From Candidatus Nanoarchaeia archaeon (GTDB taxonomy: Archaea > Nanoarchaeota > Nanoarchaeia > SCGC-AAA011-G17 > JAFCDX01): a DNA stretch of 10,395 nt. Below the pieces are notes generated by a model. That model was given only the letters and a program-made list of their open reading frames with translations. It searched no databases and was not told the DNA's origin. The stretch spans positions 1 to 10,395 of the forward strand of contig JAQUND010000050.1 of assembly GCA_028717785.1 (NCBI GenBank), read 5' to 3'. Positions 5,808-10,395 of this stretch are shown in pieces. Made by a program: the position numbers and the translations under genes. Every line of letters starts with the position of its first letter. The first letter of the stretch is position 1.

Positions 5808-5896
5808 TGGTGGAAGGTACAGGACTTGAACCTATAAGTCTATTTCTAGGCGGTAGATTTCCAATCTACTAGCTTACCAATTAGCTATAACCTTCC
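5808..5896 (-). tRNA. tRNA-Ser(GGA), class II, CCA encoded
   Basis: The acceptor stem GGAAGGT/ACCTTCC is perfect, the T arm has loop TTCAAGT, and the anticodon stem GTAGA/TCTAC closes the loop TTGGAAA, giving anticodon GGA with a normal U33. A long variable arm contains CTA-GAAA-TAG. CCA is encoded. Discriminator base 73 is A, which is unusual for a bacterial tRNA-Ser (normally G) and is the leucine identity base. The D arm is slightly irregular: TAGC/GCTA leaves no base 26. Confidence 0.85.
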
Positions 5897-5997: not shown

Positions 5998-6078
5998 TGC
6001 TCTTGACAGGACTTGAACCTGCACGGTTTTCACCGGTAGATCTTAAATCTACTGCGTCTGCCATTCCGCCACAAGAGC
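5998..6078 (-). tRNA. tRNA-Leu(TAA), class II
   Basis: The acceptor is GCTCTTG/CAAGAGC, the D stem GCG/CGC, the anticodon stem GTAGA/TCTAC with loop TTTAAGA (anticodon UAA), the variable arm CGGT-GAAA-ACCG, the T arm loop TTCAAGT, and A73 as expected for leucine. CCA is not encoded. It reads UUA, likely a heavily used codon in this AT-rich genome. It begins directly after the stop codon of the zinc-ribbon gene and ends 3 bp before tRNA-Ser(CGA). Confidence 0.95.
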
Positions 6079-6567
6079 TTATCGATATCCAAAAATTCTA
6101 GCTAAATCTACTAATTCTTTTATTTCTTTATAAAACTCTTCTGTACTTTTCTTTTTTAAACCAGTTAAAGATTTACTAACAGCATTTCCATTAAAATTAA
6201 TATGTTCTGTCGGTCCATAACAAGAACAATGAGATAAATTAAAAACATACCAACCATCATCTTTTAAAGCTATCATAGCACCAGATCCTTCATAAGGCGC
6301 TGTTGCATACCAATAAAACGCTGTTGTAATGTTATATGCATTTAATTTTTCAATATCATAATTATTTAATTTACTAATAGTATAACCACCATAATTGTTT
6401 AAACTGTTAGGAATATGATCTAATTCAACAAATCTTTTAACAAATAAATCACTTGATACATTTGGTTTATTATCATATATTTGTACAAGATCATCAATAA
6501 GGCATCCACAATCACAACAATATTTATGTGAACTATCTTGCTCAAATCCACAACTAGGACATATCAT
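6079..6567 (-). CDS. Zinc-ribbon protein with HCSCYGP domain, 162 aa
   Basis: Function unknown. The N-terminus is a zinc ribbon: C3-x-x-C6 (CPSCG) and C17-x-x-C20, with extra Cys at 18 and 22. A charged linker leads to a C-terminal domain in which YEGSGAMIALKDDGWYVFN is followed by the striking H113-C-S-C-Y-G-P119 motif. I recall similar YEGSG...HCSCYGP segments in other phage and bacterial proteins of unknown function, but could not check this. The Cys/His pair could bind metal or form a reactive site. The ATG is 12 bp after the lipoprotein stop, with AAAGGAA as ribosome binding site, and the stop codon touches the first base of tRNA-Leu(UAA), so it is part of a mixed protein and tRNA operon. 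Confidence 0.85.
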   Translation of the reverse strand: MICPSCGFEQDSSHKYCCDCGCLIDDLVQIYDNKPNVSSDLFVKRFVELDHIPNSLNNYGGYTISKLNNYDIEKLNAYNITTAFYWYATAPYEGSGAMIALKDDGWYVFNLSHCSCYGPTEHINFNGNAVSKSLTGLKKKSTEEFYKEIKELVDLARIFGYR

Positions 6568-6877: not shown

Positions 6878-8839
6878 TTATTTAGTTAATAACTTTATAA
6901 AGCTTTCTTTAGTAATATTTTCCGGTGACAAATCAATATCTATTTTATCATCCTTATTAACAACTATTTTTGCACCAGCATCTTTTAATATTTCTTTTAA
7001 ACTTACAGATCCTTTAAAATAGTTTATAAAGTAATTTAATGTATGTTTAGAAACTTCATTATTTGAAGAAGTTATATTTCTTCCTCCATCAAATTCACTA
7101 AAGTAAAAACGACATGTATTAGGTGATATATCAATAAATCCTAATACTTTTTGTTTTTTATTTATTTTAGTTTTAGCAATACATATAGATTCGTTTGGAT
7201 CTATCATATAATTTTTATTAAATTCATCCTTTTTCTTTTTAGCAACAACAATTTTAAATGGAACTTCAGCCTCTTTGAGATATTCAAAATTAAAGAAATT
7301 AAGCATTAAAAGATATTGACCTTTTGCTTGTTTTTGAACATAAAACAATTCGCTCGCTCCTTTTGGTAAAGGTGCTGTTGTATTATCACCAGAAAACATA
7401 ATATCTGCTTTGTCTGAACGATAATAAGAATCCCATCCATATTTCTTATCAATAGATAATAAAGAAAGATCTAAATCAATTCTATCATTATCATACCAAC
7501 TATCTGAATTCTTAGATTCATTACCATTTAAATTATTCCAATGAACTCCAACAACCATATCAGTAGGCACAGTAACATAAGAGCCTGATGGAATATTACC
7601 TGTAAACTGTTTTTCAGTTGCTGGTAATGCATATTCTATATCTTTTGGTATGTAAATAACTTTATTTTTAACATTATCACTTATATCATGAGCTATAGAA
7701 TCCTTTAATATCTTAATCAATTTATTAATTTTAACAGCTTGATGTTCAAATGAAAAATCTGTAGCATAAGAAGATCCATTACGAACTTTATAGACTATAG
7801 ATTCAGCATCTGATAAACGATAATTTAATGCATATAATAGTCTAACTTTTCTAAAAACATTAACTTTTGATACCTCTTTCTGAAATGTTTCTAAATTGAT
7901 AGTCTTATTATTTTTCAATTGGGCTGTAATAGTATTCAAGTAATCCTGATGCATTGGCTTATGATGTATATCTGCATATCTTCTAAGTTCATTAATATAT
8001 CCTGACATTTTATCGTGTTGCTTAAATGCAAGAAATATTGGTTTGAAACGTAAAAATATCTCTGATAACTTAGGAAGCCCATAAGCCTTTTCATATTGTT
8101 TAAAATATTTTATTGTGTTTTTTCTATCTCCACTTAATTTAATTTTATCAATAACAATACGGTTTTTAATCAATAAAGTTGTTTGTGTAGCCTTAAATAA
8201 TATATAACGTAAAAATTCAATTGGTTCTGATGGAACTAAGTCTAACTTATCATATAAGGCTATTTTAACTTCTTTATTTTTAACAGCAATAATTTCTTGT
8301 TCTGTAATTTTAAGAATATTACATATTTCAATACAATCATTAACGCTTTGTTCTGATAATGCAACTCCTGAATTCAACAGATTTAAAATCTTTTCTTTGA
8401 TCTGCTCAATAGTATAACCACGAATAATAGACAACTTTATTTTATCATCTTTAATATCCGGTATCTGTAATTTTTCAGAAGGTATATAAACCGCATTTGG
8501 ATCCGCAATACCTAATGATTCATATCCATATGTTGTAATATAATGAATAAGCTGTTCTATAATTAATTGATTAATATCAGCCGTTGCAACTTTCTTCCAT
8601 GACTTATGAAACGAACTATTCATCTGATCTGGTGTTAATCCAACTTCTTTTTCAACCAATTGAATATAACCATTTAATTCTTCTTCATCAACATTAGAAT
8701 ATATTTCTGGTGCAAAAACAAAACCCCTGCTTATAGTCTGTTTAAGAACATTAGCAGGAACTTTTTTCTTAGACTTTTTAATTGAATTAACAACAACGGC
8801 GTTAAACAATCTGATTACTGCAGCTTTTGGCAATGACAT
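6878..8839 (-). CDS. Large protein with C-terminal TerD-like domain, 653 aa
   Basis: Residues ~1-400 are helical and charged, with a basic stretch KKSKKK near 21-26; I find no nuclease or nucleotide-binding motif there. From ~420 the pattern changes to beta-rich and resembles a TerD-family domain: VGVHWNN (430-436), D452-R-I-D-L-D-L-S-L, then MFSGDNTTAP (481-490) and GASELFYV (494-501), matching the TerD plan in which DLD acidic residues bind calcium. TerD proteins belong to tellurite and chemical-stress systems that are linked to phage defence in bacteria. The layout, a long helical part followed by TerD, recalls bacterial TerD-associated proteins, but I cannot confirm homology. The start is fixed by AAGGAG seven bases upstream. 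Its leader holds three structured RNAs and a sigma70-type promoter, so expression may be early and RNA-controlled. Confidence 0.75.
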   Translation of the reverse strand: MSLPKAAVIRLFNAVVVNSIKKSKKKVPANVLKQTISRGFVFAPEIYSNVDEEELNGYIQLVEKEVGLTPDQMNSSFHKSWKKVATADINQLIIEQLIHYITTYGYESLGIADPNAVYIPSEKLQIPDIKDDKIKLSIIRGYTIEQIKEKILNLLNSGVALSEQSVNDCIEICNILKITEQEIIAVKNKEVKIALYDKLDLVPSEPIEFLRYILFKATQTTLLIKNRIVIDKIKLSGDRKNTIKYFKQYEKAYGLPKLSEIFLRFKPIFLAFKQHDKMSGYINELRRYADIHHKPMHQDYLNTITAQLKNNKTINLETFQKEVSKVNVFRKVRLLYALNYRLSDAESIVYKVRNGSSYATDFSFEHQAVKINKLIKILKDSIAHDISDNVKNKVIYIPKDIEYALPATEKQFTGNIPSGSYVTVPTDMVVGVHWNNLNGNESKNSDSWYDNDRIDLDLSLLSIDKKYGWDSYYRSDKADIMFSGDNTTAPLPKGASELFYVQKQAKGQYLLMLNFFNFEYLKEAEVPFKIVVAKKKKDEFNKNYMIDPNESICIAKTKINKKQKVLGFIDISPNTCRFYFSEFDGGRNITSSNNEVSKHTLNYFINYFKGSVSLKEILKDAGAKIVVNKDDKIDIDLSPENITKESFIKLLTK

Positions 8840-8857
8840 ACAAACACTCCTTATAGG

Positions 8858-8906
8858 AAAGCGGATAGTATTATGGTAGTTTTTTATTAGGAACTATCTT
8901 TGCTTT
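8858..8906 (-). ncRNA. Structured RNA element 3 of 3, next to the SD
   Basis: The outer stem AAAGC/GCUUU and inner stem GAUAGU/ACUAUC are separated by an A-rich bulge (AAA opposite C). The loop begins UCCUAAUAAAA and ends with AUAAU, as in the other two copies. It ends five bases before the AAGGAG ribosome binding site of the 653-aa gene, so its folding could affect translation. No known RNA family recognised. Confidence 0.7.
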
Positions 8907-8919
8907 AATTTTCAAAAAG

Positions 8920-8979
8920 ATGAAAGGCGAAAGGTAATTATCTCCAATGATTTTATTAGGAACCTTTTATGCCTTTCAT
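8920..8979 (-). ncRNA. Structured RNA element 2 of 3
   Basis: The outer stem AUGAAAGGC/GCCUUUCAU is 9 bp and perfect. The inner stem is AAGGU/ACCUU. Between them lie AUAA on one side and UC on the other, as in element 1. The loop begins UCCUAAUAAAA and ends GAUAAUU. The stems differ in sequence from elements 1 and 3 but keep pairing, which supports a selected RNA structure. Confidence 0.72.
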
Positions 8980-8986
8980 AATTAAA

Positions 8987-9040
8987 GGGCGAGAAGTATT
9001 ATCTATTAACAGTAGGTTTTATTAGGAACTTCTTTTGCCC
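8987..9040 (-). ncRNA. Structured RNA element 1 of 3
   Basis: The outer stem GGGC/GCCC and inner stem GAAGU/ACUUC are separated by AAAA on the 5' side and UC on the 3' side. The loop begins UCCUAAUAAAA and ends GAUAAU. It lies about 17 nt after the predicted start of the sigma70-type promoter, so it would be near the 5' end of the transcript. Confidence 0.72.
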
Positions 9041-9095: not shown

Positions 9096-9189
9096 TGGCG
9101 GTGAGTGAACGATTTGAACGTTCGAATCCCATATTTGAGATTTTTAGTTTTCAGGACTAACGCCATAAGCCAGACTCGGCCAACTCACC
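9096..9189 (-). tRNA. tRNA-Ser(TGA), class II, CCA encoded
   Basis: The acceptor is GGTGAGT/ACTCACC, the D arm has GCC/GGC with G18-G19, and the anticodon stem TTAGT/ACTAA holds loop CCTGAAA, giving anticodon UGA. A long variable arm pairs AATCTC with GGGATT around AAATAT, then the T arm GAACG-TTCAAAT-CGTTC. Discriminator G73 and encoded CCA fit serine. Base 33 is C instead of the nearly universal U. It follows GroES by 10 bp. Confidence 0.92.
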
Positions 9190-9732: not shown

Positions 9733-10395
9733 GTTATTTTATTTAAATAAGTAAACCAATATGTTTTTGCTTTAGCTGATATAAAAGATCCTATTTTCTT
9801 AACATCAATACCATTTTTAACTATCGTATCCATTTCTTCCTTAATAACATCTTCAAAAACCCATCGTATATAAGTTCCAGTAGACTTCATTTCATATGGA
9901 ACTCCTAACTCTTTCATCTTATCTATACCTTGTTTCATTCTATTCTCTGTTACTGCATATTCTACAAACTCTCTTATATTATTAACTTCTTCAACATCAA
10001 TAGAAGCTAATTTTTTAACCTTACTATTTTGATGCTTTTCTCCTTTTACCTTAAATATATATCTAGTTGTATCGTTTATATATTCCCATACACATCCTTC
10101 ACCTACACCTTCAATACCAAAATATTTACCAACAGGGCATTGTGCTTCAACTTTCTGTGTAAGTTCAACTAATTTATTTTGTGCTATTTCAGGTTCGTTA
10201 AAGTTAATATCTAACTCATAATTCTCAAACTGATATATATTAAATACTCTATGTTCTTCATCCTTTAAATGCTTATAATTTCTCATATCCTGATATACAT
10301 CGTCTATTTTTACAGCAAACAAAACCCACATCTTAGGTAATGAACTAATTGCTACTCCTTTTTGTATACCTTGACCACACCATTCTCCGTATATA
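9723..10395 (-). CDS. RNA ligase, C-terminal part (5' end beyond window)
   Basis: This is an ATP-dependent RNA ligase that seals 5'-phosphate and 3'-hydroxyl RNA ends by a nucleotidyltransferase mechanism. The frame is open to the window edge, so the internal Met at 10331 is not the start. The added upstream codons read YGEWCGQGIQKGVAI, matching motif III (GE-x-x-G) of the Rnl2/DRB0094-type phage ligases. Further on are motif IV, IEGVGEGCVWE, and motif V, FKVKGEKH, with the two essential lysines. The motif I lysine (KxDG) must lie outside. About 80 helical residues follow motif V. It runs straight into tRNA-Gln, sharing 10 bp. In T4 such ligases repair tRNAs cut by host anticodon nucleases; the tRNA neighbourhood suits that role. 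Confidence 0.93.
   Translation of the reverse strand, partial: IYGEWCGQGIQKGVAISSLPKMWVLFAVKIDDVYQDMRNYKHLKDEEHRVFNIYQFENYELDINFNEPEIAQNKLVELTQKVEAQCPVGKYFGIEGVGEGCVWEYINDTTRYIFKVKGEKHQNSKVKKLASIDVEEVNNIREFVEYAVTENRMKQGIDKMKELGVPYEMKSTGTYIRWVFEDVIKEEMDTIVKNGIDVKKIGSFISAKAKTYWFTYLNKITGI

Follow-up and report, generated by a model that had tools for sequence, protein, structure and literature searches.

The stretch of DNA analysed here, hereafter the window, comprises 10,395 nt of contig JAQUND010000050.1 in assembly GCA_028717785.1, which is assigned to a Candidatus Nanoarchaeia archaeon. Its minus strand encodes an RNA ligase truncated by the window end, GroES, an N4/N6 DNA methylase, an HNH protein, Hsp20 and seven tRNAs, and we regard it as probably a fragment of a large phage; Megablast of the window against phages returned zero matches. 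Along that strand the order runs RNA ligase, tRNA-Gln, tRNA-Cys, GroES, tRNA-Ser, three hairpins and a 653-aa protein. As context, the presence of an RNA ligase and of tRNA genes hints at RNA repair or tRNA protection while the phage infects its host. Elsewhere in the window (6079-6567), a 162-aa, zinc-ribbon-like protein with two N-terminal CxxC pairs adjoins tRNA-Leu and tRNA-Ser genes, and its PHROG matches are weak only.

Three tandem hairpins had been proposed at this site from the letters alone, and all three are indeed there on the minus strand (Table 1). They follow a common plan, in which a stem P1 of 4-9 bp ending in a C-G pair is followed by a 3x1 internal loop and a 6-bp stem P2 closed by GU/AC, and their loops of 23-30 nt open with UCCUAAUAAAA. 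The pairing claimed for each copy stands, with the register corrected: P2 is exactly 6 bp, and the internal loop, described before as varying in shape, is always 3x1 (AAA/C, AUA/C and AAA/C). The window has exactly three occurrences of the motif GTTCCTAATAAAA, all within the array; when up to two mismatches are allowed there are four matches against 1.3 expected, and 13 of 200 shuffles reach four. Folded singly, copies 1, 2 and 3 give -11.1, -19.0 and -7.1 kcal/mol, with z-scores of -2.8, -5.1 and -4.0 against dinucleotide shuffles, and the 256-nt leader as a whole gives a z-score of -2.76. A search of the window against the 4227 families of Rfam 15 at E ≤ 1 returned tRNAs only, in agreement with the earlier note, which had recognised no riboswitch, thermometer or toxin-antitoxin RNA with this consensus. 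The loop of copy 2 (8961-8936) also holds a mini-hairpin, UCAUUGGAGA, whose AUUGG(C/A) tip is frequent in several relatives within the 39-copy alignment described below, and this tipped mini-hairpin is possibly a second conserved element.

Table 1. Features of the array and its surroundings, in window coordinates. R1 is the covariance model described in the text; all three window copies were among its training sequences.
Feature	Position	Strand	Details
tRNA-Ser (TGA)	9096..9189	-	55 nt upstream of the array, same strand; ARAGORN and Rfam tRNA
Hairpin copy 1, overall	8987..9040	-	30-nt loop; R1 53.2 bits, E 1.7e-12 (training sequence)
Copy 1, P1	9040-9037, 8990-8987	-	GGGC/GCCC
Copy 1, internal loop	9036-9034, 8991	-	AAA vs C
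Copy 1, P2	9033-9028, 8997-8992	-	AGAAGU/ACUUCU
Hairpin copy 2, overall	8920..8979	-	26-nt loop; R1 62.0 bits, E 4.6e-15 (training sequence)
Copy 2, P1		-	9 bp, AUGAAAGGC/GCCUUUCAU
Copy 2, internal loop	8970-8968, 8929	-	AUA vs C
Copy 2, P2		-	AAAGGU/ACCUUU
Hairpin copy 3, overall	8858..8906	-	23-nt loop; R1 53.5 bits, E 1.5e-12 (training sequence)
Copy 3, P1		-	AAAGC/GCUUU
Copy 3, internal loop	8901-8899, 8863	-	AAA vs C
Copy 3, P2		-	GAUAGU/ACUAUC
AGGAG, presumed ribosome-binding site of the downstream gene	8847..8851	-	6 nt past hairpin 3; read from the sequence
653-aa protein, proposed RNA partner	6878..8839	-	helical N-terminal part to ~390; C-terminal TerD domain ~424-600

TerD proteins are known mainly from phage and tellurite resistance. 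The description of the downstream gene as TerD-like is right for the C-terminal domain of the 653-aa protein, which has the TerD fold by structure comparison, and not for the remainder. With the whole protein as query, the sole Foldseek match in the PDB under E 0.001 was 9a6r_B, over the TerD part. The 172-177-residue chains of the TerD-domain proteins 3ibz, 2kxt and 2qz7 likewise cover that part only and have no counterpart of the helical N-terminal half of the family. A weak match to the MXAN_6230/SCO0854 RING proteins (NF041916) was obtained with three of five proteins tried, at 12.3-26.3 bits against a cut-off of 600 and confined to the TerD-like stretch; PADLOC gave five proteins no match, and a search of plasmids with the C. 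vrystaatense protein found no relative. Elsewhere relatives are numerous (1643 among 7995 candidates scored), and named carriers include Chryseobacterium defluvii, Mesonia aestuariivivens, Marinicella meishanensis and cyanophage S-CRM01. Long fold matches in BFVD came from Siphoviridae ctFn287, Campylobacter virus IBB35 and Lactobacillus phage LpeD (TM 0.45-0.54). Since the best candidates in phages LpeD and CP21 (Campylobacter) reach only E 0.35 and 0.13 and are not convincing as hairpins, we claim the RNA link for the sequence family only. In two relatives the gene itself is interrupted (L137, 4995-7800; L142, 4995-7534), with stops at 5864 and 6017 and homology resuming further on; the L137 insert has cysteine pairs near 6073, which hints at either an intron or an intein that bears a frame of HNH type. 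In another locus (L122, ~9900-9960) the downstream frame reads NNFIANGFVSHNS, which resembles an intein C-terminus.

The earlier note had named as its refuting outcome that related phages would hold no further copies with compensatory changes. Such copies were sought and found. A first set consisted of 23 viral loci encoding relatives of 41-52% identity, and a script that requires pairing located an upstream copy in 22 of them, L133 being the exception. From these, 40 copies with loops of 18-33 nt were picked, one (L130) was dropped after misaligning, and the covariance model R1 was built from the alignment of the remaining 39. With the repeats L131, L132 and L139 omitted, R1 at E ≤ 0.01 matched all 20 first-set loci, L133 included, and the window, with 64 matches, of which 39 are the training copies; 62 lie upstream of the gene and two just downstream. 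A second set of 63 loci came from a wider protein search of bacterial and archaeal genomes, and here 57 loci gave 84 matches at the same threshold. For the third set, a second viral search, the best 80 of 110 loci were taken and 24 repeats or overlaps omitted; 52 of the 56 loci scanned gave 139 matches. Near-identical loci (L164/L165/L166 and L285/L287) are retained in these counts. Every match at E ≤ 0.01 in the three sets lies on the gene's strand. Among the loci left unmatched, L152, L252, L267 and L273 are represented by stretches that begin at or within the gene, so that the upstream region is absent; L177, L200, L209 and L277 have upstream sequence and no R1 copy at E ≤ 0.01; and L159 and L160 carry tRNA-like copies, visible by eye, that R1 missed. 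Even in three named phages whose proteins are distant relatives (27.8-28.9% identity), S-CRM01, S-CBWM1 and Phass-1, the hairpin is present in three of three. The hairpins are a real RNA family that is absent from Rfam 15.

What is constant in this family can be read from the 275 of 293 rows that are in simple register and represent 267 distinct copies. The internal loop has A at position 1 in 99% of copies, T/A/C in 51/33/13% and G in 3% at position 2, and A at position 3 in 96%, and the base opposite is C in 98%. The GU that ends P2 stands at 94 and 100%, and the loop starts with UCCU, each of these positions being near 100%, and has U as its last base in 99%. P1, the outer part of P2 and the remainder of the loop vary, and loop length ranges from 12 to 92 nt with a median of 29.

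In the 39-copy alignment 423 of 423 pair cells are paired, with two-sided changes at 9 of 11 pairs; this is no stand-alone proof of covariation, because the picking script demanded pairing. The alignments of the two later sets, which were fitted to the structure and include five and one rows above E 0.01, have 98.7% and 97.1% of cells in standard pairs and two-sided changes at 10 of 11 pairs, and sliding the partner by one base lowers the pairing to 37-51%. Because of that fitting we ran a further test anchored on letters only, in which each GTTCC was scored for its full two-helix partner in three sets of 21, 63 and 56 loci. Within 1 kb upstream of the gene and on its strand, 54/68, 70/141 and 93/151 occurrences were structured, against 0/16, 0/50 and 0/42 on the opposite strand of the same region, 1/27, 2/87 and 1/79 on the sense strand inside the gene, and 0/62, 8/208 and 6/88 elsewhere on the gene's strand (gene and 600 nt downstream excluded). 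Loci without a strict copy were L133 in the first set, 13 of 63 in the second and 10 of 56 in the third, and several of them carry model matches; the 'both sides' labels that this test gave L142 and L257 are unsupported by R1 and were not used. The earlier proposal of tandem RNAs whose structure is under selection is supported.

The association with the gene is also specific. A loose hairpin descriptor proved unspecific: shuffled sequence gave a mean of 120 matches, and the 1.31 Mb of loci gave 286 among those listed. Strict descriptors and R1 were adopted in its place. A pattern scan of viral contigs for GTTCCTAATAAAA...ATAAT gave at least 120 stretches, 100 of which served as a control; in these 100 other viral loci (892 kb) R1 found nothing at E ≤ 0.01, the best values being 0.18 and 0.46. 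Phages P100, LpeD and CP21 gave no match at E ≤ 0.1, nor P100 at E ≤ 1. Across six whole bacterial genomes (at most 150 candidates scored per genome), R1 gave 11 matches at E ≤ 0.1, all beside the gene and in five genomes. The sixth, Marinicella, had no R1 match at E ≤ 0.1; by eye, two tRNA-mimic copies and a shortened third can be seen before its gene, their P2 being mismatched at the outer end. The third Marinicella hairpin (L160, ~2900-2985) holds the 3' half of a tRNA-like module only, its 5' half and the closing P2 strand being apparently absent before the start codon.

The tRNA-like copies lead to the question of kinship with known RNAs. Y RNAs and their protein partner Ro60 are known in animals and bacteria, where YrlA-type Y RNAs bind Ro60 orthologues, and the role of Y RNAs and of their tRNA mimicry is still debated. 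Chen et al. (2014) are said to have described widespread bacterial Y RNAs that mimic tRNAs. The loop of the third L136 copy contains parts of a tRNA in a permuted arrangement, namely T arm, acceptor stem and D arm, with the anticodon stem toward P2, and a permuted tRNA-like module occurs also in S-CRM01 and in several genome and viral loci; the three window copies have none. A script run over 140 loci reported 35 permuted tRNA-like patterns. Eleven of them, spread over eight loci, lie inside a recognisable hairpin; other modules were recognised by eye. Among the remaining patterns are ordinary tRNA neighbours, chance matches and copies whose stem the script missed, such as S-CRM01 and L160. 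The near-identical L164 and L166 were counted with a wrong 3' partner, and the right one is visible for L164. For one such copy (L264, 2549-2692) the minimum-energy fold itself comprises P1, P2, T arm, acceptor and D arm (-44.6 kcal/mol, z -3.3). In 4 of the 11 modules, in L161, L262 and L264, the acceptor strand is followed by GCCA and a linker before the 5' half, and three further modules in L159 and L160 have the same arrangement. This layout is like that of permuted tRNA genes, as if the 3' end of a tRNA were encoded, and such modules could be processed into two-piece RNAs.

The Rfam model of YrlA (RF02553) matched L145, L161, L164, L172, L224, L262 and L264 at E ≤ 0.01 with 32-39 bits, and no tRNA-module copy reached its gathering cut-off of 69 bits. 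L136 scored 19.7 bits (E 9.8), L163 gave no match at E ≤ 0.01, and the window was unmatched; L209 scored 51.5 bits, and since its gene match is doubtful it was not counted. As with YrlA, the present RNAs are probable non-coding RNAs beside a probable partner gene, with a terminal stem that bears an internal loop and, in some copies, a circularly permuted tRNA-like module of T arm, closed acceptor and D arm. Unlike YrlA, their terminal stem is marked by the AHA/C internal loop, the 6-bp P2 and UCCU, most copies lack a tRNA module, multi-copy arrays are common, and the partner is no detectable Ro60. Of two marks of a bacterial Y RNA, a tRNA-like module in some copies was found (8 of 140 loci by script), and an adjoining Ro60 orthologue was not, with no TROVE domain detectable by sequence. 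The Y-RNA link is visible solely in those relatives that have the module.

We consider it probable that the array encodes Y-RNA-like non-coding RNAs bound by the adjacent helical-plus-TerD protein. This could hold in two ways. Quite possibly, though we put it forward tentatively, phages, bacteria and archaea-binned contigs possess a second, Ro60-independent kind of Y-RNA ribonucleoprotein, built from a TerD-domain protein and an RNA handle of its own. It is rather unlikely, yet deserves serious weight, that the hairpins are true Y RNAs of a much-diverged Ro60, whose N-terminal TROVE part has passed beyond sequence detection and whose von Willebrand A domain has been replaced by TerD. The RNA layout with its tRNA mimic matches the latter possibility, and so does the helical N-terminal part, whose predicted structure is good in the context of the full protein but reaches only pLDDT 72 when taken alone. 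Like Ro60 and Rsr, the proposed partner is encoded beside its own RNAs, and three phage TROVE genes (L326, L328, L329) lie near tRNA genes, as here, two of them with YrlA-like RNAs. TROVE membership, which was our main hypothesis, nevertheless failed on sequence: Pfam TROVE (PF05731) matched 0 of 24 family members, and hhalign against 17 TROVE proteins gave probabilities of 0.1-0.2%. A search of PDB sequences with the family profile returned two chance-level matches only. Fold searches of the PDB with the whole protein and with its N-terminal part had no Ro60 chain among the matches listed, and these barely covered the helical part; for that part, whose counterpart in Ro60 is a HEAT-repeat ring, no clear PDB match emerged. 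At the C-terminus the von Willebrand A domain is absent, TerD standing in its place. The R1 hairpin, for its part, is absent at E ≤ 0.01 from 16 bacterial TROVE loci (~1 kb flank; best E 1.6) and from all five phage TROVE loci. Three Chryseobacterium genomes (G003, G004, G007) own a canonical TROVE gene and, in a separate place, a TerD-domain gene with hairpins, which also speaks against a diverged Ro60.

Beside canonical Ro-like/TROVE genes, YrlA scored 36-44 bits, likewise under its cut-off and in the range of the tRNA-module copies, in two of the five phage loci, Gordonia phage Trax and Rhizobium phage RHph_TM39, where the YrlA-like RNAs lie upstream of the TROVE gene and are not among the listed features; the other three gave no YrlA match at E ≤ 0.01. 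For Listeria phage CKA15, passages of PMC12282133 describe unannotated transcripts of high abundance, no more than 2 kb upstream of an Rsr-matched gene, near phage tRNAs, and suggest Y RNAs; the protein there is about 57 kDa, and P100, the phage of the same genus examined above, is one of those without an R1 match.

The position of the copies bears on another explanation, that the hairpins form a cis-regulatory leader in which they serve as mRNA operators: by binding them, the protein or some other factor would control whether ribosomes reach the nearby ribosome-binding site. We judge this improbable. Most arrays do lie upstream and share the strand of the gene, and those of the first set usually finish no more than a few tens of nucleotides from the start codon, just as copy 3 of the window stops 6 nt short of AGGAG. 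Against a leader, R1 finds downstream-only copies at five loci (L187, L191, L192, L240, L260) and copies on both sides of the gene at six (L126, L135, L190, L210, L238, L253), and S-CRM01 has copies before its gene and one just after. In S-CBWM1 one copy precedes the gene and another lies 2.5 kb off between tRNA-Pro and tRNA-Glu. Phass-1 has five copies past two downstream genes, three of these copies overlapping an annotated hypothetical frame, and three further copies ~10 kb upstream; all eight are on the gene's strand and none adjoins the gene's start. tRNA-like modules in the loop would also be unexpected for a plain operator. The downstream and ~10-kb-distant copies mean that the hairpins are not merely a leader, and so flexible a position favours RNAs acting as separate molecules. 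Among the three roles suggested beforehand, a protein-binding array and processed small RNAs therefore fit better, and a tandem cis-regulator is least favoured because of the downstream copies (11 loci and S-CRM01), the S-CBWM1 copy between tRNAs and the lack of any copy at the start of the Phass-1 gene. Directly after the array of Phass-1 (L144, 6572-7010) we also noted an unlisted tmRNA gene (RF00023, 77.9 bits, E 8.7e-29).

That the hairpins are stable phage RNAs processed from a tRNA cluster, like RNAs C and D of T4, and unrelated to the neighbouring protein is very hard to credit: the window array follows a tRNA gene, and tRNA genes lie near the copies of S-CRM01, S-CBWM1 and some later-set loci (such as L161, L164, L172, L224 and L262), but ARAGORN detects tRNA genes at just two of the 20 first-set loci, all 20 of which have a hairpin beside the gene, and five of the six bacterial genomes have it only there.

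Under the preferred reading, a Y-RNA-like array with its own protein, the protein-binding handle would be the constant part of the hairpin, made up of P1, the internal loop AHA/C, a P2 of 6 bp with GU/AC as its closing pairs, and UCCU. The loop beyond it would be an effector end that varies between copies: in the window it is short and A/U-rich, other copies have a small hairpin there, and a minority have a circularly permuted tRNA-like module. Array and gene would be co-transcribed, some genomes having the array among tRNA genes, and single RNAs would probably be cut out and remain protein-bound. The bound RNA might gate the protein or tether it to other RNA enzymes, as a Y RNA does with Ro60 or Rsr, and through the copy that adjoins the ribosome-binding site the protein could also repress its own translation. 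In the Ro60-independent form of this reading, the exchangeable ends would have bare loops at one extreme and circularly permuted tRNA mimics at the other; a CCA end is encoded in some of the mimics, which tRNA enzymes could process into two-piece RNAs. Counting against the preferred reading are the difference between the constant hairpin and the YrlA stem, the rarity of the tRNA-like module, the failure to detect a Ro60 in the protein, the leader position of most arrays, and the four loci (L177, L200, L209, L277) that have upstream sequence and no R1 copy.

Published work touches this picture at several points. Passages of PMC12282133 and PMC8058203 state that bacterial Y RNAs bind Ro60 orthologues and report the gating or tethering role for Rsr with PNPase. 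According to passages of PMC7824862, some jumbo phages have TROVE proteins and others standalone TerD genes, and TerD and phage resistance are linked; passages of PMC11208441 report a TROVE protein in Borgs, and a protein related to Ro60 is mentioned for a Vibrio phage in PMC7765460. In these passages of PMC7824862, PMC11208441, PMC7765460 and PMC12282133, neither a TerD-domain partner nor the R1 hairpin is described, nor did a literature search of partial coverage bring up such an array with a TerD protein. If the proposal is true, a separate protein family with the Y RNA layout, in arrays of varied copies, would show what is essential in it, a constant handle with exchangeable ends, and TerD proteins would gain a concrete RNA link. 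As there are named strains and isolates among the carriers, the idea is directly testable.

Relatives of the 653-aa protein also occur on archaea-binned contigs (L147, L148, L150, L151, L166, L206), from bins of Pacearchaeota, Lokiarchaeota, Borrarchaeum, Methanobrevibacter and one unclassified archaeon; these contigs may be viral or misbinned, both being possible, and one of them, L166, is near-identical to the bacteria-binned L164 and L165.
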